This document shows, in pieces, positions 9,228 to 33,098 of a DNA stretch of 42,198 nt. Position 1 is the stretch's first letter, and every line of letters begins with the position of its first letter. The notes under the pieces were generated by a model. That model searched no databases. It saw only the letters and a program-made list of their open reading frames with translations, and was not told where the DNA came from. This DNA is from a virus: IMG/VR virus record IMGVR_UViG_3300030333_004210, positions 1 to 42,198 of that record; one strand, given 5' to 3'. The position numbers and the translations under genes were made by a program.

Positions 9228-9880
9228 CGAAACTCGAAATAGCTAATTACGTTGGCGAAAAGGTGCATAGCACTGACAGCGATAGCATCGCCGTTTTCAA
9301 GCAGTTTGTGGATCGTCGTTACGAGATGATTTGGAACGCCGAGTTGTGGCGCGAATCGCTTGGCACGTATTCAACAACTGTAAGTGCTGGCACGGATACA
9401 GTTGATTTAACAATTGAAATGGATTTTCCAGTATCTGCGTACTGGGATGAGCGCGAAATTACACCAGTTGATTACCAGCGCGTTTTTCAAATTAACCCAG
9501 CTTTACTGGATGAGAGTGGGACGCCAACCGACTTCATTGTGTTGTCCAAGTCAGTAAGCGCCAGCGGCACACGTCCACGAATCAAGCTGGTGCGAGTGCC
9601 TGACCAAACTAAAACGCTGTTAGTGTTGGGCAAGCTAGTCATTACGCCGTTAGGTGATTCCGACTCGCCTACAATTAGCGGGATCGACAACGCGCTGGTT
9701 ACATACGTTGAAGCTGATGCGTTGGAGTATTTGCAGCAGTACGCAAAGGCACAGGCGAAGTTGCAGGAGGCGGGAGCGCACATGCAACTCATGCGGGACA
9801 TGGAAAAAAATCAATCAGCGCGGATGATCCAGCTTGTGCCGGATGTTGAGGTTGCGTGGACACAAAATGATTTCCGATAA
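9224..9880 (+). CDS. Head-tail adaptor / tail tubular protein A-like
   Basis: A 218-residue protein whose opening 'MTKLEIANYVGEKV' and the following helical pair (FKQFVDRRYEMIWNAELWRE), then a beta-rich middle and a helical C-terminus (DALEYLQQYAKAQAKLQEAG), fit the T7 gp11 / P22 gp4-type adaptor that rings the portal in short-tailed phages. It sits directly before the nozzle-like protein, as in those phages, and overlaps both neighbours (ATGA at 9224; the next start is at 9880). Family membership is inferred from fold pattern and order, not from a diagnostic motif. Confidence 0.62.
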   Translation: MTKLEIANYVGEKVHSTDSDSIAVFKQFVDRRYEMIWNAELWRESLGTYSTTVSAGTDTVDLTIEMDFPVSAYWDEREITPVDYQRVFQINPALLDESGTPTDFIVLSKSVSASGTRPRIKLVRVPDQTKTLLVLGKLVITPLGDSDSPTISGIDNALVTYVEADALEYLQQYAKAQAKLQEAGAHMQLMRDMEKNQSARMIQLVPDVEVAWTQNDFR

Positions 9881-11481
9881 TGCCACGATTTGCGTCCAAC
9901 CAGCTTGATGAGCCGCTAGTTTTTGACGACACAATTTCATTTGTCGGAGGGCAAGTCAGTGATGTTCGCCCAAATCTCCTAAACGACAACCAGTACAGTG
10001 ACGCAAAAAACATGGACGTTGATACGTTCGGAACTGTCGTCACACGTAAAGGAACGGTCAAACACCCAAGCACAGCGCTAACCAATAACATTCAAGGTTT
10101 AGCGTATTATGACCGTCCAGTTACATCGGTTGAAAAACTGGCATGTGTATCGAACGGTGGCTTTTATTTAGCTGGTGCAAGCGACTCAAGCTGGACGCAA
10201 GTCACCGGCACGAACAGTTCGTTTAACACTAGCAACATGGTGGACATGGTTCAGTTTGTGGACAAATTGTTCATCGTTGATGGCGCAAACAACTTGCGTT
10301 ATTACGATCCTGCTGCCTCTCCCAACATCCAGCAAATAGGCAGCCCAACTGGGTTGAATTTAATCATGGACGGGCTGGTGTCGCACGGCAACAGGCTGTT
10401 TGGTTTCGGTGTTGATGGTCAGGAAAATGACGCCATCATTCACAGCAAGGTAATTGACGCTGACCAAACGTCATCGTGGTCAAACAATCAGCAGTTTCGA
10501 GTTGGCGGCCATTCCGGTGATCCGGTGGTCGCGTTGTACAGTTGGGCTAACAACAATTTAGTTGTGTTGAAGGAGGCCAGCGTCTACCTAGTCAACGCTG
10601 ACCCGTCCCTACTGGTTGCATCCAATTTTACAATTACGCAAATCAGTGATCGTTTTGGTTGCGTTGGTCGCCGCACGGTCGCCGGAGTAAGTGGTGACGT
10701 GTTTTATTTGTCGCGCTTTGGCGTCATGTCAATTGGCCAAATATTGAATGGCGCACAAACCATCGTGCAACCGCAGCCAGTATCAACTCCGATTCGCGAT
10801 TACATTGAGCGCATCAACTGGGATCATGCATCAAAAGCGTGCGCCACTTTCTGGAACAATCGTTATTTGCTGTCCGTTCCAATAGACGCATCGACGACCA
10901 ACAATTACACGTTTTGTTTCAATACGATTACAAAATCCTGGACAGGATATTGGACAGGATGGACGCCGACAGTTTTTGCGGCGAGCGCATTTAGCGGACA
11001 GTTGCGACTGAACTTTGGTCAGCACGACGGCAAAACGCTGAAGTGGCTTGAGTACACGGCGCAAAACGATGAATCCGACAGCACATTCAAGGACGATGGC
11101 GCGTTTTATCCGTCGTTTGTTAAGAGCCGTGGGTTCGTGTTTCGCGAGCAGCTAAACGACAAAATAGGTCGTAACGCTGAATTTGAATTTAACAACAGTC
11201 GTGCGCTGGTTGACGTGTTCCAAATACGGGATGACGTGCTGACCGAACAGCGGCTGAACACTGAAAAAATTGACACGGCTGCTGGTAGCGGAGTGGTGCT
11301 GCCAAAAGCCTTGCCGTTTGCGTTTGGCCAGACAGAGGTGGTGAAACGCGCCTACTCAACGATCAGCAAAGGCACATTCAACCAAGTGCAATATCGAGTT
11401 GAAGCTGATGAAAACAAAATCCAACTGCGTGGCATCAAGGCGAGCGCCATTGTCATGGGTCTGGATGCTGAAAAGCGGTAG
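9880..11481 (+). CDS. Tail nozzle / stabilisation protein (beta-propeller type)
   Basis: A 533-residue protein. The N-terminal 'FVGGQVSDVRPNLLNDNQYSDAKNM' with a following 'TRKGT' is the hallmark opening of P22 gp10/T7 gp12-like tail nozzle proteins ('GG.....P..L...... NV....G...RRG'). Repeated blade-like segments follow: 'VDKLFIVDGANNLRYYD', 'HGNRLFGFGVDG', 'NNLVVLKEASVYLV', 'GDVFYLSRFGVMSI', 'WNNRYLLSVP'. In relatives it forms the hexameric channel below the adaptor through which DNA leaves. Its start overlaps the adaptor stop, and the two proteins are expected to contact each other. Confidence 0.75.
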   Translation: MPRFASNQLDEPLVFDDTISFVGGQVSDVRPNLLNDNQYSDAKNMDVDTFGTVVTRKGTVKHPSTALTNNIQGLAYYDRPVTSVEKLACVSNGGFYLAGASDSSWTQVTGTNSSFNTSNMVDMVQFVDKLFIVDGANNLRYYDPAASPNIQQIGSPTGLNLIMDGLVSHGNRLFGFGVDGQENDAIIHSKVIDADQTSSWSNNQQFRVGGHSGDPVVALYSWANNNLVVLKEASVYLVNADPSLLVASNFTITQISDRFGCVGRRTVAGVSGDVFYLSRFGVMSIGQILNGAQTIVQPQPVSTPIRDYIERINWDHASKACATFWNNRYLLSVPIDASTTNNYTFCFNTITKSWTGYWTGWTPTVFAASAFSGQLRLNFGQHDGKTLKWLEYTAQNDESDSTFKDDGAFYPSFVKSRGFVFREQLNDKIGRNAEFEFNNSRALVDVFQIRDDVLTEQRLNTEKIDTAAGSGVVLPKALPFAFGQTEVVKRAYSTISKGTFNQVQYRVEADENKIQLRGIKASAIVMGLDAEKR

Positions 11482-13628: not shown

Positions 13629-16600
13629 ATGAACAGTGTCGTCGAATCAGCGCGTAGGCAGTACGGCGAAAAGTTTGCAGACTTTAGCGACGAGGAACTA
13701 ACACTATCAATCGGCAAAAACTACCCAAAGCTGCTGGGTAAATTTGATGATTTTGCTGACGACTTTAGTTCGATTCAAGCTGACCGTAACGAGGACAGTG
13801 GATTTTTTAACAGCATCCGTAACGCATGGTTGCGTGGATCAAACCAAGCTGCCGTTGCGGACGTTTTAGTTGGCGAAACATACGGGGGGCGCTTCACCGA
13901 CGAGGATCGTTTCGAGGAAATGGCGCTGGCTAATCGCCGTTCGGAAGCACTGAAAGGCAGTGAAGCGTATATCCAGTTTACGCAAGCACCGGAAAGCGAA
14001 AAAATTGGTCGCTTCTTTACTGACCCGTTTGAAATTGGTGGTCAGATCATAATTGAATCACTTGCTGCACAAGTAAACTTTGGGGCTACCCGAACTGCCG
14101 TTGGAATGGGTGCTGGTGCTGCTGCTGGTTCGATAGTTCCTGGAGTCGGTACAGTCGCTGGTGCTGGTGTTGGTTTTGTTTCCGGTCAGGCGATCACCAC
14201 GCTGGGTGTTTCGTATGGCAGCAAGTTCAACGAGATGCTGATCAACGAGGGGGTTGATGTACGCGATGCCGACGCAATTCGTGACTCATTACAAGACCCG
14301 CAGTTTGTAGCCAGCTTGCGTGACAAGTCGCTGAAGTACGGCGTGCCGGTTGCAGTGGTTGACGTGCTAACGATGAAGCTGGGCGGCTTGGTGACTGCCC
14401 CAGCTAAAAAACTGGGAGTTGAATCGGTGGGTGGTTCCGCTGGTGAAGCTGCTGGTCAGTTGGTTTCGGAAGGTGAAATCACTTCACCCAGCGAAGTGCT
14501 AATTGAAGGCATTGCCGAGCTAGGTGTTGGTGGCGCACAACAGTCTGCACTGTCCGGCATCAACATGTTGAAGGACAAGCAAGTTCAGCAGGACTTGAAG
14601 GAGACGCAAAGCAAATCCGACGAGTTGCGTAACGCACGCGAAAAGGAGGTGCTGGATGCGTATAACGCTGAACTGGAGGCGCAACAAACTGTTGATCCGG
14701 AACTTGGCCCAATGACGGAAGTCGAGGGGGTCACGGTCACCAACATCGATGCGAATGCCGGTGAAATTTTGCAGGAAGGATCGGTTCCGAACAAAGTCGT
14801 CAAGGAGCTGGATGCCACCAAGTTTAGTGATTTCAATGAAGTCGTGTTCATCGACAATGATGACCACACAATGGCTGGCGTCACGGGGATTGGCCGGTTG
14901 GTAATCAACGTCGGTAAACTCAAAAAGCACATAAAAGACAATGGGCTGGATGCTGACGAATATATCCAGAAACTGATACAAGAAGAGGCGATACATGATG
15001 CACACCTAAAAAGCATACTGGGTGAGTACGACGCCAATACGACGAAACAATCATTTAGCGAGTTTGCAGCCGAACGCTTTCAGCGGATTGCAGACGAAAT
15101 GACCGACGAACAAAAAGCGTATGTCCGCGAAGTTTACGGTCAGGATTTGGAAGACGCATCGATGGGTGCGGAGTATGTTCGCATGCTGGTGCAGGAGCGC
15201 CGTCATGGGAGTATCACTGAAAGTTTATTGTGGAACGAATTGGGACTAAAACCAGCGCCAGCCACACGCAACTACTTCCGTCGCGCATTTGATTTTATTA
15301 GGCGGCGCGTCAAACGGGACAACGTCGATCCGGACACTATCCAAAACGAAGTCAACAACCTCGTTGGCATATTGCAGGATATTGAAGACCGGTCGAACGA
15401 TATGGGCGACGTGGAAATGAACCGCGCCCAAGCTGCTGAAACAGCGGAGTCAGTTCAGCGTCAGGAACAAGTTGAACTGCAACGTGCTGAAGATGCGCCG
15501 ACTAGTGCTGGCATGGAACAGCAAGCCGGTATCGAGGAGCAGCGTGCTGCCACGCAAACTGATCCGCAAATGGAACAGCAAGCAGCAGTGGAACAGCAAC
15601 GTGCTGATGCGCCTGTTACTGATCCGGAAGTTGCGCGACAGGAACAAATTGAAATGGAACGCGCCCAACGTCGTGACGTTACAGGCGTGCGCCAAACACA
15701 AGACCCAATTGGGCCGACTCGACCTCCAGTTAGATTGGAGTGGCAGTCGTTGGAGGACATTTTAAATGAACCATTGGTTGTTACCGGATCGCCTAAAGTG
15801 ATTCCCAGCAGCGACGTGATTGACCAGCGCCGCACTAAACAAGTTGAAGCTGGCAAACTGGATCAACAACCAGGATTTCAACGCACAGCGGAACAGTCTG
15901 TTGAACTTGAACAAAAGCAATTTACCGAACAGCAGGAACAACGAGGTGAAGCTGAACGGGTGCAACCGGAGCCGTTACGACCGCCGGAAGGCGCTTTTCA
16001 AGAAGCGCAAACGACTGCTGAACCAACGACTGAAACGCAGCAGCAACCGACGCAGCAGGAACAAGTGCTGACTGACGAGGAAAATCAGTTTGTTGAAAAT
16101 ATTTCCAACGCATATGCCGGTAAAAGATTTTTCAACCAGACTGCGAGGGTCGATGCCGCTGCAAGTGTTTCCACGGACACAAAATTGGCGCTATTAAAAA
16201 TGCGGCAAAGCGGCAAGCTGGACGAAGCGCAATTCCAGCAAATGGCTCGTACCATAGCAGCAAACAAAGCGCGTGACATTGGTCGTGTGCAAAAACGTCG
16301 ATCAAAAGAAACGACGGTGGACGAAAACGAAACCGGTCAAACAGTATTTGATCGCGAGGAGGCGACAGCGCCTTCACCGGAACAAATAACTCGCAAGCGC
16401 GAACGGTTACAGCGAGTTTCAAAAGCGATTGATGAGTTGCCAGCAGCGCAGCGCGAAGTCATGCAGCTTACAGCGCAGGGACTTTCGCCAGCCGAAATAG
16501 TCGAACAAACCGGCAAGTCGCGCCAAGCAGTGGATACCAACTTGTCACGGGCGCGAGCGAAGCTGATGAAGCAGCCGGACTTGATGCTGGAAGCAAGCAC

Positions 16601-19505
16601 GCAGGGCAAACCGGATGCAGCAAAAGCCAAGTCTGAACTGCGTGAAGTGTTGAACGAGGTGAAGGAGTTGATGAAAACCGCTCCGTTCGCTGTACACAAC
16701 ATGCCGGTCGAACAGGCGATCCGTCAGGTGCTGGACGCGCAGTCACCGGAACAGCAACGCACACTGGACGCTGAAGTAGGCGTCAAGACGATGGACGATG
16801 TTGACCGGATATTTTCACCGCTTGAACCCGATAAACCGTCATTGGGTGAGCGCCTACGATCAGCAATCGAATCATTCAGCACGAATTTCCTGACACGGTT
16901 TGCGCCGTTGAAGCAGCTTGAAAGCAAGGTGTTTAAGGTGATGGGTAAAAAAGCACCGCGCCTTGACCTCGCACGTAAGTTTGAACAGTTGGCCGGATCA
17001 CCAGCCCGTGCTGAAAAGATGATGATGGATTTCCACAACGCAGTGGTTAAACCCATCAAGGGTCTGGAGCAGCAGTTTAATCGACTGATGTTTTTACGGC
17101 GCACACGCCAGCGCTTGCAGGACAATCCGGATCGCAAACGGGTGGCTGATTATTCGCTGTCGGATGTAACAAAGTTGTTGGAGGAACTGGAAGCATCGAT
17201 GTCGCCGCAACAGATGCAGCAACTTGAGTCGGCTGTTGATCAGTACCAGGAATTCATGGCTGCGATACTTCGCATGCAAATGAACAGCGGACGCATATCG
17301 CAGGAGACGCTGAACAACATAGTTGAGTCGAATGATTTTTACGCGCCGTTTGTAGTGCTGAAGCATTTGGAAGACTCGGAGTCAACTTCAGCAACTGGTC
17401 AGCGCATCGATACCACAAAGCAGTTGGCGCAAATGATCACCGGCATCGATGACACGGATTTCCGCTTGGGTAATTTTATTGATGCTGCATACGAGCGAAT
17501 ATTGACCGGCTACATGTTGGCCGACAAAAATCTCAAGATGCAGGAACTGTATGCGCTGTCACAAATCGATGAGTCTGGATTGGTTCGCGAATTGAAGGAG
17601 ACGAAAGTCGGAGCCAAAAAGACGGTGCGTGAAAAAGCTGATCACGAAGTGTCCGTGTTTGTTGACGGTGAACAAAAGCACTTGGCTGTTAACCGTGAAG
17701 TGGCACGTTCCATCGAGGGGTTGAACGCGCAAACAACCGGCATGTTGACAAAGGCAATGGCGATTGGCGCAATCCCAATGAAAGCTGGCGCAACAACATT
17801 CAATTTGGCATTTCAGTTCGTAAACTTATTTGCTGCTGATATGCCACGGTTGGCGATGGTAAGTAAGTACGGGTTTCGTAGTCCTGTTGATTTGATCCGA
17901 CTGCCATTGGACTACACGTATGCATTGTTCAGTTCAATAACAGGCAACTTTGGCAAACCAAACGCACTGTATAAGGACTTTTTAAATAGCGGTGCAGCAC
18001 GATCAACATTGCAGCGCGAACTAACTCCCGAACTGTTTGAAGTAAAACCCACTGAACGTGATTTCAAATTAACACCGAAAGGAATGATTCGGGCGCTGGT
18101 GCAAGTGGCGAGCAGCATCGAGGAAACGTCGAAGCTGGTTGGACTCAAGCGCGGGATGCGAATTGAAAAGCTGGCTGGCATGACTCCGGAGCAGCAGCGT
18201 GAACGCATGGGTGAAATAGTGGCTGAAGTAAGGAACTTCGCCGGATCACCAGACTTTGGGCGGCAAGGTGCTTTGACACGGGCCGGTCAATTGAACTTGG
18301 TGTTTATGTACTTCAACGCACGCATACAAGGTGTTGCTGCTGACTTGGGTCGCTTGGCTGGAAGAGACGGTGGCAAAAACGCAGCGTTGGTTCATGCGCG
18401 ATTGGCCGCTGCTGTTGGGATTCCGACTGTCACATTATGGGCGCTCAATAACAGCGACGAGTACAAGGAGGATTACGAGGAGATACCGGATCGGGACAAG
18501 GAAAACTATTGGCACATCCCCACTGACCAGTTTTTTGTGAACGACGAGGGTAAGCGGATTCGCGACTACTACCGGATACCAAAACGCGAAGTGTCCAAGT
18601 TGTTTGCCAACATCGTTGAGTCGTCGCTGAAGTTTTTGGAAACCCGCGAACCGAAAGCGTTGAAGGAAATGGGGGTGGTGTTTTTGGAAAACATCATGCC
18701 GGTCAGTGTGACAGGCGAAAACATGGATGAACGTGTTGAGTCAGTTATCAGTAGTTTAAATCCGCTTTTTAAAGGAATGCTGGAATATGGGTTGAATCGG
18801 AACACTTGGCAGCATCGCGACATCATTCCTGAAAACCTAAAAGCGCGGTCACCGGAAAATCAATATTTCAAAAGCACACCGCAAATATTCCGCACAATTG
18901 CCAAGGAGATGCCGGAGGCTTTGCCGGAATCGTTCCGTTCCCCGCTGATGCTAAAGCAGTTGACCGGCACAATGACGGCTGGATTGTTCACGCAGTTTTT
19001 GCCGCCACGGGAAACCAACCGCAAACCGCTTGGTGTGTTCAGCGATCAATCACCGCTGTTTCGGCGCTTCATTCGCAGTCCGTATGTGAACGAATCCGAA
19101 ACCGAAAAGCAATTGGAAGCAATTGAGCGAACGGAAGCGGATCGTCAGTTCAAGGAGCGCGAAGCCGTTGATCAGTTTATTGAAGACACGAAGGGGATGT
19201 CATCGATGAACCGTATGATCCGCGCTCGCCAAGCCAGTGGTGGAAGTCGGACGCTTTTTCAAAAATACAAAAAGGCGATTGAAGACGATTCCAATCTGAC
19301 CACACGCCTCGACAAGCGCGTTCGCGGACTGCCGGTTTCGAGCGGTGCGCGATCCATGTTCATCATGCAGCAAATGGAAGGCATGCAGTACGCTGGCAAG
19401 GTTGAGTACTTGCGCGGACTGTTCCAAAAGCGGGTGATCAGTGGGCAAGTTGCACAACAAATTTTCGCTGAAACCGGCATCAGTCCGAGCGAATATACCC
19501 GCTAA
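13629..19505 (+). CDS. Giant internal/ejected polyvalent protein containing an ECF sigma factor-like segment
   Basis: A 1958-residue protein, the largest product. Order seen: residues 1-330, helical with a Gly/Ala membrane-active stretch (about 160-195); about 440-470, a metal-site-like 'EEAIHDAH'; about 590-810, Gln/Glu-rich spacer; about 814-985, an ECF sigma factor pattern, with region 2-like helices (R840 onward) ending 'MARTIAANKARDIGRVQKRR' (871-890), an acidic linker, and region 4 'RERLQRVSKAIDELPAAQRE' from 924 with helix-turn-helix 'LSPAEIVEQTGKSRQAVDTN'. Residues about 1370-1660 resemble the LPD38-type domain of phage polyvalent proteins ('NFAGSPDFGRQG', 'VFMYFNARIQGV', 'DKENYWHIPTDQF'). 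Position and size fit the third ejection protein. The sigma part would act on host RNA polymerase; that is inferred from sequence only. Confidence 0.72.
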   Translation: MNSVVESARRQYGEKFADFSDEELTLSIGKNYPKLLGKFDDFADDFSSIQADRNEDSGFFNSIRNAWLRGSNQAAVADVLVGETYGGRFTDEDRFEEMALANRRSEALKGSEAYIQFTQAPESEKIGRFFTDPFEIGGQIIIESLAAQVNFGATRTAVGMGAGAAAGSIVPGVGTVAGAGVGFVSGQAITTLGVSYGSKFNEMLINEGVDVRDADAIRDSLQDPQFVASLRDKSLKYGVPVAVVDVLTMKLGGLVTAPAKKLGVESVGGSAGEAAGQLVSEGEITSPSEVLIEGIAELGVGGAQQSALSGINMLKDKQVQQDLKETQSKSDELRNAREKEVLDAYNAELEAQQTVDPELGPMTEVEGVTVTNIDANAGEILQEGSVPNKVVKELDATKFSDFNEVVFIDNDDHTMAGVTGIGRLVINVGKLKKHIKDNGLDADEYIQKLIQEEAIHDAHLKSILGEYDANTTKQSFSEFAAERFQRIADEMTDEQKAYVREVYGQDLEDASMGAEYVRMLVQERRHGSITESLLWNELGLKPAPATRNYFRRAFDFIRRRVKRDNVDPDTIQNEVNNLVGILQDIEDRSNDMGDVEMNRAQAAETAESVQRQEQVELQRAEDAPTSAGMEQQAGIEEQRAATQTDPQMEQQAAVEQQRADAPVTDPEVARQEQIEMERAQRRDVTGVRQTQDPIGPTRPPVRLEWQSLEDILNEPLVVTGSPKVIPSSDVIDQRRTKQVEAGKLDQQPGFQRTAEQSVELEQKQFTEQQEQRGEAERVQPEPLRPPEGAFQEAQTTAEPTTETQQQPTQQEQVLTDEENQFVENISNAYAGKRFFNQTARVDAAASVSTDTKLALLKMRQSGKLDEAQFQQMARTIAANKARDIGRVQKRRSKETTVDENETGQTVFDREEATAPSPEQITRKRERLQRVSKAIDELPAAQREVMQLTAQGLSPAEIVEQTGKSRQAVDTNLSRARAKLMKQPDLMLEASTQGKPDAAKAKSELREVLNEVKELMKTAPFAVHNMPVEQAIRQVLDAQSPEQQRTLDAEVGVKTMDDVDRIFSPLEPDKPSLGERLRSAIESFSTNFLTRFAPLKQLESKVFKVMGKKAPRLDLARKFEQLAGSPARAEKMMMDFHNAVVKPIKGLEQQFNRLMFLRRTRQRLQDNPDRKRVADYSLSDVTKLLEELEASMSPQQMQQLESAVDQYQEFMAAILRMQMNSGRISQETLNNIVESNDFYAPFVVLKHLEDSESTSATGQRIDTTKQLAQMITGIDDTDFRLGNFIDAAYERILTGYMLADKNLKMQELYALSQIDESGLVRELKETKVGAKKTVREKADHEVSVFVDGEQKHLAVNREVARSIEGLNAQTTGMLTKAMAIGAIPMKAGATTFNLAFQFVNLFAADMPRLAMVSKYGFRSPVDLIRLPLDYTYALFSSITGNFGKPNALYKDFLNSGAARSTLQRELTPELFEVKPTERDFKLTPKGMIRALVQVASSIEETSKLVGLKRGMRIEKLAGMTPEQQRERMGEIVAEVRNFAGSPDFGRQGALTRAGQLNLVFMYFNARIQGVAADLGRLAGRDGGKNAALVHARLAAAVGIPTVTLWALNNSDEYKEDYEEIPDRDKENYWHIPTDQFFVNDEGKRIRDYYRIPKREVSKLFANIVESSLKFLETREPKALKEMGVVFLENIMPVSVTGENMDERVESVISSLNPLFKGMLEYGLNRNTWQHRDIIPENLKARSPENQYFKSTPQIFRTIAKEMPEALPESFRSPLMLKQLTGTMTAGLFTQFLPPRETNRKPLGVFSDQSPLFRRFIRSPYVNESETEKQLEAIERTEADRQFKEREAVDQFIEDTKGMSSMNRMIRARQASGGSRTLFQKYKKAIEDDSNLTTRLDKRVRGLPVSSGARSMFIMQQMEGMQYAGKVEYLRGLFQKRVISGQVAQQIFAETGISPSEYTR

Positions 19506-26664: not shown

Positions 26665-27428
26665 CTCACGTCGATTTATTCAGCGGCATCGGGGGATTCG
26701 CATTAGCCTGTCGCCACGTCGGCTTGAAAACTATTTGCTTTTGCGAAAGCGATCCATTCTGCCACCGGATTTTGGCCAAGCATTGGCCGGACGTTCCGAT
26801 CATCGATGACGTTAAACAGTTCAACGGAAACGAATGGCAGCGGCCAACTTTGCTTACCGCTGGATTCCCCTGTCAGGACGCCAGCATCGCGCAAACACGA
26901 CGTGATCGATCCGGATTGGATGGCGAGCGCACGGGCTTATGGAGCGAGTTGGTGCGAATTATTGGCGAGGCTAGACCGAAAGTTGCGCTGCTGGAAAACG
27001 TCCCAAACTTGCTTAACGGAGACGGGGGAGATTGGTTCGGACGAATACTGTCAGACTTGGCCGCGATCCGGTATGATGCGGAATGGCATTGCATACCGGC
27101 TTCCCACGTTGGCGCGAAGCACCAGCGGGACAGACTCTGGATCGTGGCCAACCCCCACGGCGAGGGATTGGAAGGACACGGGGAAAATGGAAAACGTGCC
27201 GGTCAATGGTTTGCTGGGTCGAGTTTTCCGGAAAAAATTTGGGATGAATTTGATCCCGAACTTTTGCGAGTGGCTGATGGGATTCCCAAGCGATTGGACA
27301 AACGCATCGAGCGACTCCGGTCGCTAGGCAATGCCGTTTGCGTTCCCCTCGTCATCGAAATACTCCGCGCTATTTTCGATCATCAGCCCAGCGTCGGCCA
27401 GCGTTCCCCGAATCCGTTGCCTGATTAA
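26661..27428 (+). CDS. C5-cytosine DNA methyltransferase
   Basis: 255 residues, GTG start overlapping the previous stop. The motifs are complete: I 'DLFSGIGGF' (5-13), IV 'GFPCQD' with nucleophile C71, VI 'ENV' (112-114), VIII 'QRDRLW' (155-160), and IX-X 'RLRSLGNAV' (218-226). It transfers methyl from S-adenosylmethionine to cytosine C5. The target-recognition part between VIII and IX is very short (about 50 residues), so the specificity is not predictable. A phage methyltransferase with no partner restriction enzyme usually protects phage DNA from host restriction. The +1 frame over 26806-27327 also encodes a family-like protein. The 3' end overlaps a convergent gene by about 105 bases. Confidence 0.93.
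   Translation: MTHVDLFSGIGGFALACRHVGLKTICFCESDPFCHRILAKHWPDVPIIDDVKQFNGNEWQRPTLLTAGFPCQDASIAQTRRDRSGLDGERTGLWSELVRIIGEARPKVALLENVPNLLNGDGGDWFGRILSDLAAIRYDAEWHCIPASHVGAKHQRDRLWIVANPHGEGLEGHGENGKRAGQWFAGSSFPEKIWDEFDPELLRVADGIPKRLDKRIERLRSLGNAVCVPLVIEILRAIFDHQPSVGQRSPNPLPD
26806..27327 (+). other. Second family-like reading frame inside the methyltransferase gene (possible overprinting)
   Basis: The +1 frame is open for 173 codons. It reads 'LPLDSPVRTPAS', 'CWKTSQTC', 'WPRSGMMRNGIAYRLPTL', 'SGTDSGSWPTPTARDWKD' and 'NFCEWLMGFPSDWT'. These are the marks of proteins often found in phages next to cytosine methyltransferases. Here they come from the same bases as the methyltransferase motifs (DSPVRT is the shifted GFPCQD; SWPTPTARDW is the shifted LWIVANPHGEGL). 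Whether it is translated is unknown. It has an ATG but no separate ribosome site that I can identify. Confidence 0.4.
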
Positions 27429-27593
27429 TTCAAGCGTCTGTTTGGAGTAGTACGTTCCCTCCAATTCTAGGAGATCGGTAATTAACGCATCCACCTCGAT
27501 TATCGTGTCGCGGTACACCACTGACCGGCTGGCTTCCGTGGCCATGCGTTCAAATATTACCGCGTTGCGCCGTTTAGTTTTTTCAGCATCCAT
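27324..27593 (-). CDS. Small helical hypothetical protein, convergent with the methyltransferase
   Basis: 89 residues from ATG 27593 (MDAEKTKRRNAVIFERM), helical with an acidic end. The start lies inside the preceding metallopeptidase gene (37-base overlap). Its last about 35 codons are antisense to the methyltransferase 3' end. No family recognised. It is the last gene of the leftward block. The longer start at 27629 is less likely. Confidence 0.55.
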   Translation of the reverse strand: MDAEKTKRRNAVIFERMATEASRSVVYRDTIIEVDALITDLLELEGTYYSKQTLELIRQRIRGTLADAGLMIENSAEYFDDEGNANGIA

Positions 27594-27895
27594 TTCACAA
27601 AATCCGGATTGTCGCGCATGACGGTGCATTGACCCGTAGTCATAAGCGTCACGATCCGTTCCTCCGTCAGTTCGCCGGTCATGTGTAATCCGGCAAACAG
27701 TGCGTGATTAATTTCATGCCAAATCGTGTCAGCCATTGCTGTCGGTTTTTGATCGCGGCAAACAACGATTGTTTGCGTGCTCGTATCACACGATCCGTGT
27801 GAGTCGGTAGCCGTTTCGATATCCCGATTCACCCACACTAAATCGTAATCCAGATTTAGGATTTTAAGGCGTTTTGGGTATACGTCGGCGCTCAT
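27557..27895 (-). CDS. Small zinc metallopeptidase-like protein (HEINH)
   Basis: 112 residues from ATG 27895 (MSADVYPKRLKILNLDY); the 32 codons upstream translate a hairpin and are discarded. 'ADTIWHEINHALFAGL' places the zincin motif H-E-x-x-H at 60-64, followed by 'TEERIVTLMTTGQCTVMRDNPDFVKW', where an Glu could be the third ligand. The order ('YDLVWVNRDI', 'G.CD....TIVV', 'HE..HA') matches a family of small phage proteins of unknown substrate. It sits downstream of a terminator-like hairpin. Confidence 0.7.
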   Translation of the reverse strand: MSADVYPKRLKILNLDYDLVWVNRDIETATDSHGSCDTSTQTIVVCRDQKPTAMADTIWHEINHALFAGLHMTGELTEERIVTLMTTGQCTVMRDNPDFVKWMLKKLNGATR

Positions 27896-27941
27896 TGGGT
27901 TGGATTGTAATTTAAACGCGTTACAGCGCAAACTGGGGCCA

Positions 27942-27974
27942 TAAAAACAGCAACCCCCGCCTGTCCAACGGGGG
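27942..27974 (-). terminator. Leftward intrinsic terminator
   Basis: On the minus strand a CCCCCG / CGGGGG stem (27974-27969 with 27959-27954, 9-base loop) is followed after six bases by TTTTT (27947-27943). It would end or attenuate transcription of the leftward block before the last two genes (27895 and 27593). Confidence 0.5.
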
Positions 27975-28043
27975 CAACTGTCCTTAACCAATCAATGAAT
28001 ATTACTAACAATAAGCGCAGCGTTGCACTGCTGTAGAACGGGG

Positions 28044-28271
28044 CTAATGTACTACAATGTCCTCACTTTCGTCAACTACAATCAACGGCGGCGTGCAGTC
28101 ACAAAACAGCGCCGCATCGATGCCGAGTTGAACACCGGCACGAAACGCGTGCGCCTCCGGTTCGGTATCAAACTCATGTTGCCGGATATCGCTTTTGTCC
28201 AGCAGTTCGGGGTCTTCATGCAGCATCCACGAAGTGGCTGACAGCCCGTGCAGTGTGGTTACTGTTACCAT
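28044..28271 (-). CDS. Small acidic hypothetical protein
   Basis: 75 residues, ATG in an ATGA overlap with the stop of the RlpA-like gene. 'FDTEPEAHAFRAGVQLGIDA' resembles the 'F-x-T-x-x-E-x-x-A-F-x-x-G-V' helix of several short phage proteins that end with an acidic strand (here 'PPLIVVDESEDIVV'). Function unknown. Coupling to the upstream gene makes it a credible gene. Confidence 0.55.
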   Translation of the reverse strand: MVTVTTLHGLSATSWMLHEDPELLDKSDIRQHEFDTEPEAHAFRAGVQLGIDAALFCDCTPPLIVVDESEDIVVH

Positions 28272-28636
28272 CAGTCGAGAATTGTAATGGTTACGGGAAT
28301 CAAGCCGAGTCGAGTGTCAGCCAAGCGCTCAAAACTGGCTTGCGACAAATCAATCCCCCGTTCGGTAAACCGTTTGTTTGGGCCACGATCATTAATTTTG
28401 CAAATTACGCTTCGACCGTTGTGTTCAACAAGTACCGACGTTCCAAACGGGACATCCCACATCGCTGCCGTGAAGGCGGTGGGGTCAAACGGCTCCCCGC
28501 TCGCCGTGGGTTTTTTCGCGTACCGAGCGCCATAGTAGCTGGCGATGGTTTCCCATTTTTTAGGTGGCTGTTCGTATGGCTGCGATACAACCCAAGTGAA
28601 CACTGCGGCGCTCAATAAAATAGTGATTACTTTCAT
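28271..28636 (-). CDS. RlpA-like double-psi beta-barrel protein, candidate cell-wall lytic enzyme
   Basis: 121 residues with an N-terminal hydrophobic signal or anchor (residues 3-18). The DPBB core is clear: 'ASYYGARYAKKPTASGEPFD' (32-51), 'TAAMWDVPFGTSVLV' (56-70), 'ICKINDRGPNKRF' with D83, 'GIDLSQASFERLA' (94-106). RlpA proteins cut naked-glycan peptidoglycan as lytic transglycosylases. D83 is the conserved Asp. The His normally in 'TAAH' is Met59 here, so activity may be altered. No other endolysin was recognised, making this the best lysis enzyme candidate, but it lies in the leftward block rather than with the holin-like genes. ATGA overlaps on both sides. Confidence 0.82.
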   Translation of the reverse strand: MKVITILLSAAVFTWVVSQPYEQPPKKWETIASYYGARYAKKPTASGEPFDPTAFTAAMWDVPFGTSVLVEHNGRSVICKINDRGPNKRFTERGIDLSQASFERLADTRLGLIPVTITILD

Positions 28637-28881
28637 GCGCTGTACTGTACTAATTCGTGTGCATTACGGATCAACCAATGCTGATTCCAGCGTGGCTTCG
28701 CCTTGAACTTATCAAGTTGTTCCTGGTTTTTCCAGTTAGCCAGTTTGATAAACTTTTTAACGTGTTTTGCTTTCAGCGATCCGGCAAGACCGTGTTCGGC
28801 CAGCCATGCGCGATGCGCCTCGATGTCCGCTTGAATCCGGCGCAATTCAAGCCGGAACTGTCGTGTGTTATTAATCATCAT
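28633..28881 (-). CDS. Small basic hypothetical protein
   Basis: 82 residues from ATG 28881, which overlaps the upstream stop as ATGA (28881-28878). 'TRQFRLELRRIQADIEAHRA' and the following 'LKAKHVKKFIKLANWKNQEQ' are amphipathic basic helices with several Trp. No family recognised. The C-terminal codons ELVQYS carry a copy of the TTAGTACAGTAC motif. The longer start at 28944 would lie deep inside the preceding gene and is rejected. Confidence 0.52.
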   Translation of the reverse strand: MMINNTRQFRLELRRIQADIEAHRAWLAEHGLAGSLKAKHVKKFIKLANWKNQEQLDKFKAKPRWNQHWLIRNAHELVQYSA

Positions 28882-29222
28882 AATGCTATTTGACAAATTG
28901 GATCGCCGCCAATCGCTTCCGACAAGTCGGTATCGCGACTGCATTCATATATAAATATCATATCCTCGCCGTCCCAGTAGCTGACAGCATGGTAATCGCC
29001 TACGCGCACTGTCATCGATGTACCGGCGCTGTCGCTTTGTGTTTCAATGTCAAGTTGTCCATACTCAATCCAATTAGGTGACATATTTAAAAAGACAAGG
29101 TTTTCAAGACGTGTCCAAAAACCAGTGTCGTCGCTCGATTCCGAATCGCGTGATTCAATTATCGCTGTTTCCCATCTATGAGCCAGTGTGGCTGCGTTTA
29201 GTAGTGATTTTGATTTAGTCAT
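28878..29222 (-). CDS. Hypothetical acidic beta-rich protein
   Basis: 114 residues from ATG 29222, in an ATGA overlap with the gene before. A helical start ('KSLLNAATLAHRWETAII') is followed by strands 'MTVRVGDYHAVSYWDGEDMI' and 'FIYECSRDTDLSEAIGGDP'. No recognised domain. The ORF extension to 29327 is Arg/Ser-rich shadow of the neighbouring gene. Confidence 0.55.
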   Translation of the reverse strand: MTKSKSLLNAATLAHRWETAIIESRDSESSDDTGFWTRLENLVFLNMSPNWIEYGQLDIETQSDSAGTSMTVRVGDYHAVSYWDGEDMIFIYECSRDTDLSEAIGGDPICQIAL

Positions 29223-29569
29223 GGTCGAACTCCTGTCGCTTGTTCCAGTGCATCGGCCGCTTGATCGGCAATGTCCTGCACGACGTGATTGTCGAGTGGA
29301 TTGGCTGACATGTTGCCGGTTTTGCACAAGTCTTCAAATACGTCGTAAGTACTATGCAGCGTGGCAACCAATTGCTGCACCGCTGTCAGTAGATCGGGCG
29401 ATGCTGCGATTAGCCGTGTATTGGCGTGCGCGTTTTCGTGGCCCGTGTAAACGTCTGCTATTATCCCTTTGGGTTTGCGCGAATATTTTTCATATTCATC
29501 AGTTGCTACTCGGAGTCGGTATTTTTCATCCGCCACCATCCACGGGCCGTTTGTGTGTTTAGTTTTCAT
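29219..29569 (-). CDS. Conserved phage early protein with 'NTRLIAASPDLLTAV' motif
   Basis: 116 residues from ATG 29569 (MKTKHTNGPWMVADEKYR). 'HANTRLIAASPDLLTAVQQL' is the signature of a very common family of small phage proteins ('AN.RLI..APELL..L') of unknown function, usually found in accessory early regions. ATG 29569 is preferred over ATG 29587 because the promoter-like element at 29593-29621 places its -10 only 24 bases upstream of 29569. Stop overlaps the next start. Confidence 0.72.
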   Translation of the reverse strand: MKTKHTNGPWMVADEKYRLRVATDEYEKYSRKPKGIIADVYTGHENAHANTRLIAASPDLLTAVQQLVATLHSTYDVFEDLCKTGNMSANPLDNHVVQDIADQAADALEQATGVRP

Positions 29570-29592
29570 ATTATTGGCTATTGCCATTTGTT

Positions 29593-29621
29593 ATTACGTA
29601 TCAAATTTTAGTTTCTTACAG
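29593..29621 (-). promoter_or_regulatory. Leftward promoter-like element A (CTGTAA-N17-CGTAAT)
   Basis: Minus strand CTGTAA (29621-29616), 17 bases, CGTAAT (29598-29593), then AACAAATGGC. Shares its layout with elements at 31106, 31597 and 33129. ATG 29569 lies 24 bases past the -10-like box. Confidence 0.55.
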
Positions 29622-29955
29622 GGATTTCGCGTGGTTCGTCGTGCGTCATCCAATCGTGCATGCTGTTTGTATGATTCACAGCCAACTCCACTGCCTGGAA
29701 TGGTTCACCATGCATGTCGCAGTAATATCGAACGCGGTACATGACAGCCATGCCGCACGTCGCTTCTTTACTCCATCGCTGCCAGATGCGCCTCGCTTTT
29801 GCGAAACTTTTAGTCGTGCGCCATTCAGTCGGCCCGTCGGCGTCGAACTCCGCGTAATCCGTTCCAAAGTTGCGAATACCAAAGCGCTCGACGGCGTATC
29901 GGTTTTCGATTGATGCGACTACTCGCCCGTATTCGTTTTTGTCTCCAATTTGCAT
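29608..29955 (-). CDS. Hypothetical protein
   Basis: 115 residues from ATG 29955 (MQIGDKNEYGRVVASIENRY). The N-terminal strands and 'AEFDADGPTEWRTTKSFAKA' then 'YRVRYYCDMHGEPFQAVELA' suggest an alpha/beta fold. No family recognised. Its start lies three bases below the stop of the YkgJ-like gene; the alternative ATG 29991 would overlap that gene by 34 bases. Promoter element A overlaps its 3' end, so transcription of the next gene is boosted from within it. Confidence 0.55.
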   Translation of the reverse strand: MQIGDKNEYGRVVASIENRYAVERFGIRNFGTDYAEFDADGPTEWRTTKSFAKARRIWQRWSKEATCGMAVMYRVRYYCDMHGEPFQAVELAVNHTNSMHDWMTHDEPREIPVRN

Positions 29956-29957
29956 AA

Positions 29958-30221
29958 TTATCCGATTCTGTTTTTTACTACTTTTCTCCAATTATTAAAT
30001 AATGGGGCGCAGCAGCCAGCGCCGATTGAAAGTGATTTTTTAAGGCGATCCGCTTCAACGCGATCAGCGTCCATGATCAGTCCGCATACGTGGCGCTCGC
30101 CGTTCCACCGCAGCGAGGGACACGGGCCAAATTTGTGATTTGGGTTGGCCCGTTGCCCCTCATGGCAAATTGCCTTGTGGCAGCAATATCCGGAACCCAA
30201 GCATGGTTTTGGATCGTCCAT
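29958..30221 (-). CDS. Cys-rich YkgJ-like (zinc/iron-chelating) protein
   Basis: 87 residues. 'PCLGSGYCCHKAICHEG', 'GPCPSLRW', 'HVCGLI' and 'IGAGCCAPLFNNWR' give eight clustered Cys residues in the order of the YkgJ-type metal-chelating family, a form often met in phage genomes ('P-C-L-G-x-G-x-C-C' start, 'G-A-G-C-C-x-P-L-F-N' end). It probably binds zinc or an Fe-S centre; the role is unknown. The start codon abuts the stop of the upstream gene at 30221. Confidence 0.75.
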   Translation of the reverse strand: MDDPKPCLGSGYCCHKAICHEGQRANPNHKFGPCPSLRWNGERHVCGLIMDADRVEADRLKKSLSIGAGCCAPLFNNWRKVVKNRIG

Positions 30222-30535
30222 TATTTTACAGTTACGTATAAAAATAAATTATGTCCGCTGTAACAATCAGCATACGGCGCGTGCTTTTTTATCACACGAT
30301 CCTGCGCTGCATACAACATGCCCAGCCACGGACATCCGTCACTTGACGGTTGAAATTCATCGGCTGCGACTAATACTGACATGTCATATTTTTGTGCGTA
30401 ATAAATCGCCAATTTGGTTTTAGTCGATAGTTTTTCAAACCAATCGCCAAGCGCCTCGACGCATCGATCCCGATCCTCAAGCGTGTCCGGATTGGTTCCC
30501 CAATCCATCGAATCAATTTCGTATGTGATTTTCAT
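30221..30535 (-). CDS. Hypothetical protein
   Basis: 104 residues from ATG 30535 (MKITYEIDSMDWGTNP), chosen because it forms an ATGA overlap with the upstream stop at 30532. 'RDRCVEALGDWFEKLSTKTK' and 'LAIYYAQKYDMSVLVAADEF' are helical; three Cys are scattered. No family recognised. Confidence 0.52.
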   Translation of the reverse strand: MKITYEIDSMDWGTNPDTLEDRDRCVEALGDWFEKLSTKTKLAIYYAQKYDMSVLVAADEFQPSSDGCPWLGMLYAAQDRVIKKHAPYADCYSGHNLFLYVTVK

Positions 30536-30750
30536 AAAAAGTAAGTGACGTTTCCAGTGTTCCAAGGTGCATTTGCAAACGGAATAAATACATCGTCGTC
30601 AAACACGTAGTATTCGTGCTGCTGATCGATTTTATTCCACACGTACAGATAAGTTTTGCCGTCGCTGTACAACATTGGCGTTTCGTTGCCGCCGCATGCC
30701 ACGTCGTAATTTGCGTGGCTAAACGGCGACCATGTTTTTTGCGTGTTCAT
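30532..30750 (-). CDS. Hypothetical small protein
   Basis: 72 residues, aromatic-rich beta pattern ('MLYSDGKTYLYVWNKI', 'HEYYVFDDDVFIPFANAPWN'). ATG 30750 follows a hairpin-containing gap. No family recognised; coupled to the following gene by ATGA. Confidence 0.5.
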   Translation of the reverse strand: MNTQKTWSPFSHANYDVACGGNETPMLYSDGKTYLYVWNKIDQQHEYYVFDDDVFIPFANAPWNTGNVTYFL

Positions 30751-30769
30751 ATTAATTGGTGCGGCTGAT

Positions 30770-30802
30770 GCACCGCGATCCGCGCTCCGTAGAACGCGGT
30801 GC
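30770..30802. other. 8-bp perfect stem-loop between genes of the leftward block
   Basis: GCACCGCG (30770-30777) pairs with CGCGGTGC (30795-30802) around a 17-base loop. No T-tract on the minus strand. It may slow transcription or protect the processed 5' end of the message of gene 30750. Confidence 0.4.
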
Positions 30803-30810
30803 GCGATGCA

Positions 30811-31080
30811 CTAGAAACTTTCCTCGAATACAATGCCGTGCTTTTTGCATAGCAATTGCAGTTCGTACAAAAATCCCGTTGCTGATTTTTCGTCCGGTGC
30901 GGCTGCACGTTGCTTGGCTAGTTCCACGTCAAAAACTTCACTGCCGTCCGACAGTGTCCATTGCGTGGCGTCTCCAAAAAACGATGCCGGATTCGATGCG
31001 AGATCGGGATTAGCGCTGTACATTTCCAATATTTCGCAACTGTTATAGTCGATTGATTTTTCCGTTGTTGTATTATTCAT
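30811..31080 (-). CDS. Hypothetical acidic protein
   Basis: 89 residues, 'SIDYNSCEILEMYSANPDLA' and 'DGSEVFDVELAKQRAAAPDE', helical and acidic. ATG 31080 lies 26 bases past the -10-like box of promoter element B. No family recognised. Confidence 0.5.
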   Translation of the reverse strand: MNNTTTEKSIDYNSCEILEMYSANPDLASNPASFFGDATQWTLSDGSEVFDVELAKQRAAAPDEKSATGFLYELQLLCKKHGIVFEESF

Positions 31081-31105
31081 GTTGATTGGCTTGTTGCCGT
31101 TGTTT

Positions 31106-31134
31106 ATTACGATTGATTTTGCAGATTCTTACCA
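31106..31134 (-). promoter_or_regulatory. Leftward promoter-like element B (TGGTAA-N17-CGTAAT)
   Basis: Minus strand TGGTAA (31134-31129), 17 bases, CGTAAT (31111-31106), then AAACAACGGC, the same ten bases as in element C. Overlaps the stop of the upstream gene by its -35-like box. Gene 30811-31080 starts 26 bases beyond. Confidence 0.58.
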
Positions 31135-31572
31135 ACCAAGCGCACGCTTCCAATTATTGGCCGCTTGGCTTCCATTGCACAAAAGCATTGCCATCGATGT
31201 CAGTTCGTCGAATAGCTGCTCGCCTGTTAGTGCGCCGATCATGCGCTTGTCATTGGCCATCGGCCCGTGCGTGGCTTTGTCGTCAAATTTGGCCAGCGTT
31301 TCGCAATCCCATTTGACCGAAAATAATCCGTGCAAATTGCCCACGGATTGATTCCACCGAACGAGCCGGTGCAAAAGCGATCCAAGCGGCCGCTTGTGGA
31401 ACGTCGGCGCTTTGGCCAGCAATCCGCCCGTGCGGTTATTTAAAGCGCCTTCCAGCGCCGTGCGTGCTATCGCTTCGCACGGGAAGTGTACGCCGTCGCT
31501 CGACTCCCGTGCCGCCTTAACGCGTGCGACCATGCCGTCAACGCGTTCCTGTTTTTTAGTTTTAGTTTTCAT
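31129..31572 (-). CDS. Hypothetical protein
   Basis: 147 residues from ATG 31572 (MKTKTKKQERVDGMV); the upstream frame to 31731 runs into the neighbouring gene and lacks a promoter. Mixed helical sequence, 'FPCEAIARTALEGALNNRTG' and 'NDKRMIGALTGEQLFDELTS'. No family recognised. ATG is 25 bases past promoter element C. Its opening bases (ATGAAAACTAAA) equal those of gene 29569, which has the same promoter type. Confidence 0.55.
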   Translation of the reverse strand: MKTKTKKQERVDGMVARVKAARESSDGVHFPCEAIARTALEGALNNRTGGLLAKAPTFHKRPLGSLLHRLVRWNQSVGNLHGLFSVKWDCETLAKFDDKATHGPMANDKRMIGALTGEQLFDELTSMAMLLCNGSQAANNWKRALGW

Positions 31573-31596
31573 ATTTTTGGCGTCGTGCCGTTGTTT

Positions 31597-31625
31597 ATTA
31601 CGATTCAATTTTTCGTTTCTTACAA
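31597..31625 (-). promoter_or_regulatory. Leftward promoter-like element C (TTGTAA-N17-CGTAAT)
   Basis: Minus strand TTGTAA (31625-31620), 17 bases, CGTAAT (31602-31597), then AAACAACGGC. This is the best copy of the four. It lies in a true intergenic gap, 25 bases upstream of ATG 31572. Confidence 0.62.
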
Positions 31626-31637
31626 TGTAATGTGCTT

Positions 31638-32480
31638 TTAGTGAATACCAATTGCGATAGTCACTGCCTGGAATTTGTTTAACCCGCACGCATGGCCGGA
31701 TTTTGTACATTCGCCGCATTTGCCGGGGCAAACGAACACGCGATCATGTCCAAGCGCTTTGGCGCTTTCGCGCACGCTTGCCGCGTATTCGCGCCGATTG
31801 TCGCTTGTCGCCTTAATGCTAGGCACGGCGATGAATTGCCCACGGTATACCGGCAACGATTCAAGCTGTTTTGCCACGTCGTCGCCGTAACGACTCCCGC
31901 TTGACAAATTCAAACGGTAATTTGACGGGAAAGCCGCGTCGCCAAACGCACGCTTGAATTGCAAAAATATTGGCCATGATTTGCTGTAACCATACGCCGA
32001 AATATCCGGCCGTGCGCGTAATTGATCAAACCAGAAACAAAGTGTTTTGACGCTGTCAATGTCGCCGTCCACGTACAATCGTACAGTGACGCCGTGCGGT
32101 AGCGCTTGGAACGCTTCGCGCAATTCCGGCGCTTGGCGCAGGATCAAAAGCGTGTTTTGACACTGGCGAAAAAAAGCGGCCGGATATCGCCACGCTTTAA
32201 GGCTGTAACAAAATTTGGCGCATGCGCCAGCGCCGGGGCAAGTGACAAGCGGCAAGGCGCTGAAAGCGTAAAAAGGCAATTTGCTGTTACCGCGTGCAAA
32301 AATAGTAAACGGCGCTTCACCGTCGCTTTCAAGCCAATCGGCAAAGCGCTTGGCCCAATGCGCCCACGTCCCGCGCTTGTCGGCATCGCCAGCCGCTTGG
32401 ATCGCACGGACGGCCGGAATTAAATCCGGCGAGTCCGTGGCGACTAGTCGCGCCAGTTTGATAAGTTGCTGGCGTTTCAT
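31638..32480 (-). CDS. GP88-like Cys-cluster protein
   Basis: 280 residues from ATG 32480 (MKRQQLIKLARLV), in an ATGA overlap with the upstream stop. 'LVTCPGAGACAKFCYSLKAW' gives C81, C87 and C91, and a C-terminal 'VFVCPGKCGECTKSGHACGL' gives five more Cys; between them lies 'VRLYVDGDIDS'. This is the arrangement of the phage gene product 88-type family (mycobacteriophage L5 gp88 and relatives), whose 'CP....C...CY' motif suggests a metal or Fe-S centre. The biochemical role is unknown. It is the largest gene of the leftward block. Confidence 0.72.
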   Translation of the reverse strand: MKRQQLIKLARLVATDSPDLIPAVRAIQAAGDADKRGTWAHWAKRFADWLESDGEAPFTIFARGNSKLPFYAFSALPLVTCPGAGACAKFCYSLKAWRYPAAFFRQCQNTLLILRQAPELREAFQALPHGVTVRLYVDGDIDSVKTLCFWFDQLRARPDISAYGYSKSWPIFLQFKRAFGDAAFPSNYRLNLSSGSRYGDDVAKQLESLPVYRGQFIAVPSIKATSDNRREYAASVRESAKALGHDRVFVCPGKCGECTKSGHACGLNKFQAVTIAIGIH

Positions 32481-32725
32481 GCGGTGAAATAATTTTTGAG
32501 CAACTCCGCGAACATGTTTTCGATGGCTTCGCGGTCGATGCATGGCAAATCCCAAGCGACATTGTCCGGCGTCGTCGGGCTGTCAATTTCGCGCATAAAT
32601 TCGCGGAATGAATCAAAATCGCCGCGATCCAATGCCAATTGATACAAGCCTTGATCGTTTTGAATCCAAAGCGCCACGTTCCACGTTTCGTAATTGCGCC
32701 AGCCGTTGTATGTTTTTTCGGTCAT
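32477..32725 (-). CDS. Conserved small phage protein ('NGWRNYETWNVALWI')
   Basis: 82 residues. 'YNGWRNYETWNVALWIQNDQ' is a very common opening among short phage proteins of unknown function (DUF7249-like). The C-terminal half is an acidic helix 'IDREAIENMFAELLKNYF'. ATGA overlaps on both sides show translational coupling. Confidence 0.72.
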   Translation of the reverse strand: MTEKTYNGWRNYETWNVALWIQNDQGLYQLALDRGDFDSFREFMREIDSPTTPDNVAWDLPCIDREAIENMFAELLKNYFTA

Positions 32726-33021
32726 GCTTTAGCGCCTCCCGTGACTGTGATGCGGCCAGCTTGAAAAATTACGTTAACGCGGTCATGGCCAGCGAATATG
32801 GCGGCGACGGCTTGGCCGCTTATGTCGATGATGGGACGCGAATCCGTACCGGCGACGCCGAACCGGCCAACTTCGCCAGCTGTTAGCGTGATTTTGTTGG
32901 CTTGAACTAGTTTCTCGTAACGAACGCCGCGAACGAATCCGGCCGCTGTCAGGCGCTTGCCTTCAATCCACACACGGCGTCCGCCGCGATGGTGGCCAAG
33001 TTTGTAATTGTATTTTTTCAT
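32722..33021 (-). CDS. Small protein with SymE/AbrB-like N-terminal pattern
   Basis: 99 residues. 'RRVWIEGKRLTAAGFVRGVR' then 'YEKLVQANKITLTAGEVGRF' resembles the swapped-hairpin barrel of SymE/AbrB-type proteins ('R-x-x-I-x-G-x-x-L-x-x-x-G-F-x-x-G'). The second half repeats a strand-rich pattern 'PIIDISGQAVAAIFAGHDRV'. It may bind nucleic acid; the match is short, so this is a suggestion. Starts in ATGA overlap with the micro-ORF at 33018. Confidence 0.5.
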   Translation of the reverse strand: MKKYNYKLGHHRGGRRVWIEGKRLTAAGFVRGVRYEKLVQANKITLTAGEVGRFGVAGTDSRPIIDISGQAVAAIFAGHDRVNVIFQAGRITVTGGAKA

Positions 33022-33098
33022 AGTGCTAGGATCAACAAACCGAGCGCGAATAGCGAAACAACGAAAAACGCGTCGGCGATTATTTGTGTGATTTTCAT
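33018..33098 (-). CDS. 26-residue single-span membrane peptide
   Basis: ATG AAA ATC ACA CAA at 33098, encoding 'MKITQIIADAFFVVSLFALG' and then LLILAL, stop TGA at 33018-33020 inside an ATGA overlap with the next ATG. The whole peptide is one membrane helix after a single Lys. Promoter-like element D lies 31 bases upstream, making it the first gene of the leftward block. Function unknown. Confidence 0.5.
   Translation of the reverse strand: MKITQIIADAFFVVSLFALGLLILAL

Follow-up and report, generated by a model that had tools for sequence, protein, structure and literature searches.

Phages must start transcription on arrival, and they can do so through host promoters, through an injected polymerase as in phage N4, or through injected enzymes that modify the host polymerase. 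The N4 virion RNA polymerase is a giant ejected protein which starts early transcription (PMC4496689). As means by which polyvalent proteins start transcription, Iyer et al. 2017 mentions protein-modifying enzymes and N4-like RNA polymerase; the word 'sigma' is absent from its main text. A processing zincin metallopeptidase domain is common in such proteins, though not universal. The LPD38 domain is confined to phage-type polyvalent proteins (PMC5512222). In ECF promoters, a spacer of about 16 separates two boxes, and the -10 box is often of the CGT type; for example, ECF41 uses TGTCACA-n16-CGTC with a spacer of 16 +/- 1 (PMC3426412). The phage protein described here follows the same logic as the N4 polymerase, in that a predicted transcription specificity factor lies inside a giant, probably ejected protein. 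However, no polymerase domain was found in it, the host core enzyme would be needed, and the two sequences are unrelated. It resembles the polyvalent proteins in its giant multidomain make-up, its LPD38 domain and its typical position and size. Compared with the ECF (group 4) sigmas CnrH, SigW and SigH and with the free sigmas of crAss-like phages, its central segment has the same sigma2-linker-sigma4 layout, with profile and fold matches alike, and a motif of the same phage is bipartite with a 15-16 bp spacer, as ECF promoters are. ECF sigmas are free proteins of about 180 aa, whereas the segment here is internal to a 1958-aa virion-type protein; in addition, its clade has a degenerate region 2.2, and no anti-sigma was identified.

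The window, which is the whole stretch of DNA analysed, is the IMG/VR record IMGVR_UViG_3300030333_004210 (42,198 nt, positions 1 to 42,198), and its gene content is that of a temperate podovirus-like phage (Table 1). It encodes an integrase (19719-20879, minus strand), an Erf-like annealing protein, an exonuclease, a replication initiator, a DnaC-like loader, a DNA methyltransferase, a terminase, a portal/adaptor and a major head protein; none of the window proteins that were scanned was identified as an RNA polymerase. The virion operon begins in the terminase region, continues across the end and start of the record and finishes with the gene of the giant protein. When genome_contigs was scanned with the giant protein and then with the 533-aa virion protein, no relative was found.

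Table 1 Features of the window discussed in the text (positions in nt; residues refer to the giant protein).
Feature	Position	Strand	Basis or remark
533-aa virion structural protein	9880..11481	+	phrog_3287 / phrog_511; same operon as giant protein; query for relatives
Giant ejection/polyvalent-type protein (probable), 1958 aa, last virion-operon gene	13629..19505	+	Intact ORF; LPD38; C-terminal homology
ECF sigma-like segment, residues 812-985	16062..16583	+	TIGR02937 61 bits, PF08281 47 bits, AF2, Foldseek
Sigma2-like three-helix part, residues 816-894, region 2.4 = TIAANKARDIGRVQKRR	16074..16310	+	AF2 helices 5-22, 26-50, 55-83
Sigma4-like part with helix-turn-helix, residues 917-980	16377..16568	+	PF08281 above cut-off; AF2 helices 106-169
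LPD38 domain, residues 1613-1788	18465..18992	+	PF18857 78 bits, cut-off 27
Leftward operon, small mostly unknown genes, proposed sigma target	27324..33098	-	Gene calls, motif positions
Motif copy 4, GTAAGA-N15-CGTAA	29594..29619	-	Upstream of gene ending at 29219
Motif copy 3, GTAAGA-N15-CGTAA	31107..31132	-	26 nt before ATG of next gene
Motif copy 2, GTAAGA-N15-CGTAA	31598..31623	-	25 nt before ATG of next gene
GP88-family gene (PF17338), in leftward operon	31638..32480	-	74 related loci among viral contigs
Motif copy 1, GTAAGA-N16-CGTAA	33130..33156	-	Leftward-operon head; 31 nt before ATG of 26-aa leader ORF at 33098

The giant protein is probably an ejection-type virion protein, and its presence in the virion and delivery would follow from that class. 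First, its gene comes after the tail genes in the virion operon, where podoviruses have their ejection proteins. Second, its single ORF holds several unrelated domains, LPD38 and the sigma segment, as polyvalent proteins do. Third, its C-terminal half is homologous (20-28% identity) to giant proteins of Pelagibacter and Bacillus podophages, and in the Pelagibacter phage Lederberg the homologous giant comes after tail tubular protein B and an internal virion protein. Because of this gene order, the LPD38 domain and the homology to Pelagibacter giants at the internal-virion-protein position, we regard the protein as one of the injected kind, which agrees with the original prediction, made from the sequence alone, that the flanks of the sigma segment belong to an ejection/polyvalent protein. 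The LPD38 giants of Lederberg_8, HTVC010P and Pascal (gp19) share the homologous C-terminal half and the same position in the virion operon, but they are without sigma region 4 and their genomes are without GTAAGA-N15/16-CGTAA. No single-subunit RNA polymerase domain of the N4 type was found in the giant protein by Pfam, PHROG or PDB matches, nor was an N4-like polymerase found in two larger sister giants. For the C-terminal 883 aa, AF2 gave an unusable model (pLDDT 38). Residues 1-600 had no Pfam match, and no proven protease domain was found in the giant protein; a QEExIHDAHLK stretch is invariant at residues 447-460 (EExIHDAH at 452-459), and it recalls a zincin helix, although it is not the canonical HExxH.

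Residues 812-985 are confirmed as an ECF sigma-type domain (sigma2-linker-sigma4), set between two flexible linkers. The original prediction had read a whole ECF sigma factor in 16068-16580, which corresponds to residues 814-984, and the peptide strings that it quoted are present in the giant protein. In profile searches of the kind that it had proposed, the TIGR02937 sigma70-ECF model gave 52-61 bits (61.3 at best, cut-off 42.9) over model positions 34-163 of 165, and PF08281 (sigma region 4) gave 44-47 bits against a cut-off of 25.7, which is far beyond chance. By contrast, the Pfam Sigma70_r2 model (PF04542) had no match in the window protein, which leaves region 2 with little sequence support ahead of residue about 850. 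The segment also matches phrog_1740, 'RNA polymerase sigma factor' (2e-15), and, in the PDB sequences, CnrH (1.4e-6). The AlphaFold model of the segment alone, another check proposed at the outset, came out with the expected layout: in the AF2 model (pLDDT 76), helices 5-22, 26-50 and 55-83 are followed by helices 106-124, 128-138, 143-150 and 154-169, and a disordered linker (80-102) joins sigma2 and sigma4, the only two domains. Foldseek against the PDB gave sigma-factor chains or sigma domains among the matches listed, the ECF ones first. Global TM-scores were only 0.3-0.4, as would be expected when a flexible linker joins two domains, and single-domain fits reached 0.8, with a good fit to, e.g., 3vfz. 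In the viral fold library, the matches were dominated by annotated phage sigma factors, and a tblastn search of named phages with the segment returned solely free crAss-type sigmas and unannotated gut phages. The sigma domain is without a start codon of its own, and it must therefore act within the giant protein or after proteolysis.

The word 'whole' in that prediction has to be given up for one element. Region 2.2 is the usual RNA-polymerase grip of sigma factors, and its canonical ECF form is DAEDLVQEVFLRLW. At this place (residues 842-856), the window protein has DAAASVSTDTKLALL, the relative L008 has DVAGDVALQTRKEI and G026, of a second clade, has DADAQDVWTHLWEKA. In comparison with the canonical form, the core-binding helix is thus eroded in the window clade: the three-helix fold and region 2.4 are present, but region 2.2 no longer has its D/Q/E signature, and on these sequences core RNA polymerase binding by the window-clade domain may be weak. 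This loss, together with the failure of Sigma70_r2 to match, could suggest a passenger without function, taken up from an ECF sigma factor of a bacterium or phage and now in decay. The conservation of the domain makes such a passenger highly improbable. The domain is present in all full-length relatives, and at 49-92% identity the segment is retained in each of the IMG/VR relatives L002, L003, L004, L006 and L008, with most of the invariant residues in regions 4 and 2.4. Across the segment pN/pS is mostly 0.1-0.4, i.e., selection is mostly purifying, with the exceptions of sigma4 between the window and L004 (0.61, from small samples) and sigma2 between more distant subclades (0.7). A motif private to the lineage, described below, also argues against a passenger.

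Further evidence against decay came from the second clade (G024-G026), which was found with the neighbouring 533-aa virion protein as the query. Its giants have about the first 600 residues in common with the window protein and a different C-terminal half, so that the domain persists in two clades whose C-termini differ. The segment has diverged there and is missed by PF08281, but it aligns by profile to that of the window (hhalign 95%, E 1.9e-8). The G026 segment matches TIGR02937 over positions 9-165 of 165 with 35.7 bits (E 6e-9), less than the curated cut-off of 42.9, and this extent suggests that the ancestral domain had region 2; in G026, region 2.2 is canonical and the motif is kept. 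Between the clades, identity is highest in region 2.4 (0.43), and it is 0.18 in the first two helices. The G026 giant (L127:13587-19985) also carries, at residues about 690-880, an extra segment (IDSGAFRAF...VVMPDIIG) which is found in L118 as well; by eye it is like a tRNA-guanine transglycosylase/DpdA-type barrel, and Pfam gave no such match at E<=1. In the distant LPD38 giants of G028, G030, G031, G034, G040 and G045 (L216-L221), as well as Lederberg, HTVC010P and Pascal, the sigma segment was undetectable. The L216-L221 proteins are larger members of the family (2725-3635 aa), and the three of these giants that were scanned have LPD38 and no other Pfam domain above cut-off; the middle regions of the larger sister giants may hold other cargo.

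As for a possible target of the sigma domain, a blind repeat search of the window gave three 47-nt repeats upstream of leftward-operon genes, and their common core, GTAAGA-N15/16-CGTAA, led to a fourth copy at the operon head. Within the window the motif has four exact copies, each just ahead of an ORF of the leftward operon and on the same strand as that operon; dinucleotide shuffles of the window gave 0.02 copies on average and never more than 1. In an unbiased two-box count of the window alone, the motif was not singled out among low-complexity and self-overlapping pairs; the case for it rests on the distinct positions, the strand, the place before ORFs and the cross-genome pattern. No sigma70-like hexamers were found at the motif sites. 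A sigma70 reading, TTGTAA-17-CGTAAT, was rejected, as its invariant CG stands in place of the A at position 2 of the -10 box, a position where A is important. Several other features were seen around these sites. At the operon head, a 26-aa leader ORF (MKITQIIADAFFVVS..., 33018-33098, minus strand) overlaps the next gene by ATGA, and a similar 26-aa ORF comes after the motif in G004 and G007. At many motif sites, in the window (29569-33098, minus strand) and in relatives, a short GGC-GCC hairpin lies just before the ATG, and a Shine-Dalgarno sequence is not evident for the genes behind the motif.

The motif is restricted to this lineage. There are 23 exact copies in eight lineage contigs (four each in the window, G007 and G009, three in G004, and two each in G002, G003, G008 and G026), and G026 has one near-copy besides. 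All 23 lie on the operon strand, 0-46 nt upstream of an ORF start, although copies at orthologous genes are not independent events. When spacings of 5-35 were scanned, 15 and 16 alone occurred, save one stray at 35. The strict 17-base form was present in 4 contigs among 2.9 million, three of the four from this lineage; a lone strict match in G006/L041 was set aside as chance, since no real ORF lies behind it and the record is without the giant protein. Records with related operon genes or virion proteins and no sigma segment gave one copy in about 1.5 Mb, with no real ORF behind it, and the motif was not found in the genomes of Lederberg_8, HTVC010P and Bacillus phage Pascal. Motif and sigma segment occur on one contig in G000, G002, G003, G004 and G026. 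G007-G009 are short contigs without the giant gene and are tied to the sigma domain by lineage only, and G001, G005, G024 and G025, which carry the domain without the motif, are incomplete contigs (10-20 kb) that stop short of the leftward operon or give no evidence of extending to it.

The same motif could be the operator or promoter of another factor, such as a small leftward-operon protein or an alternative sigma of the host, with the sigma-like domain doing something else, for example DNA binding in packaging or ejection, or sequestering of host RNA polymerase. The degenerate region 2.2 of the window clade would fit such a role. In addition, region 4 of the G026 clade has diverged strongly though the motif is the same, so another factor could read it, and both boxes contain GTAA, which makes a direct-repeat binder possible. 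However, the leftward-operon proteins that were tested yielded no other regulator, the 15-16 bp spacing and the box sequences are ECF-like, and region 2.4, the promoter-reading part, is the part best conserved between clades. We therefore consider another reader of the motif unlikely. A sigma function is further supported by the retention of the domain under purifying selection and by the G026 clade, in which the segment is kept, and the motif with it in G026.

The layout of the motif is like that of ECF promoters. The simplest account is that the sigma domain of the giant protein reads it with the host core RNA polymerase, and a protein of the injected kind would bring this sigma factor in along with the DNA. 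We propose that a virion-delivered ECF sigma directs host RNA polymerase to the leftward operon through GTAAGA/CGTAA promoters, a reading to which we give slightly better than an even chance. Synthesis of the giant protein would be late, and the protein would then be packaged into the virion and travel into the next host together with the DNA. There, its sigma domain would bind the host core RNA polymerase and lead it to promoters in which 15-16 bp separate a GTAAGA box from a CGTAA box, so that the leftward operon would be switched on immediately upon entry. This operon would lie at the last-packaged end, and would enter first, if the terminase small-subunit gene (33201) is near the starting point of packaging. 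Alternatively, the sigma domain could be real and read the motif, but act where it is made, in late lytic growth or induction, with the leftward operon as a late operon. The domain does sit in a late virion gene, and the link between protein and motif fits this equally well; a free sigma gene would serve that purpose better, however, and the fusion to an ejection-type protein argues for delivery, so that we give action at the site of synthesis a low probability. For the delivered sigma, the original claim that the phage brings its own promoter-specificity factor has gained a private, ECF-spaced motif upstream of an operon of the same phages; the delivery that it assumed we infer from the kind of protein.

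We also suggest, more tentatively and at a little less than an even chance, that the domain activates an early operon whose private promoters are unreadable by host sigmas, so that its genes would be expressed only on arrival of the virion and stay silent in the prophage. Searches of the open-access literature turned up no virion-borne sigma factor, although this does not prove that none has been described. Given the predicted promoter motif, the idea could be tested directly in vitro, with short DNA and the segment of about 180 residues. If true, a virion-borne sigma would be a further route by which phages start transcription, and an economical one, as it only redirects the enzyme of the host. 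With it, a temperate phage could tell infection from prophage life.
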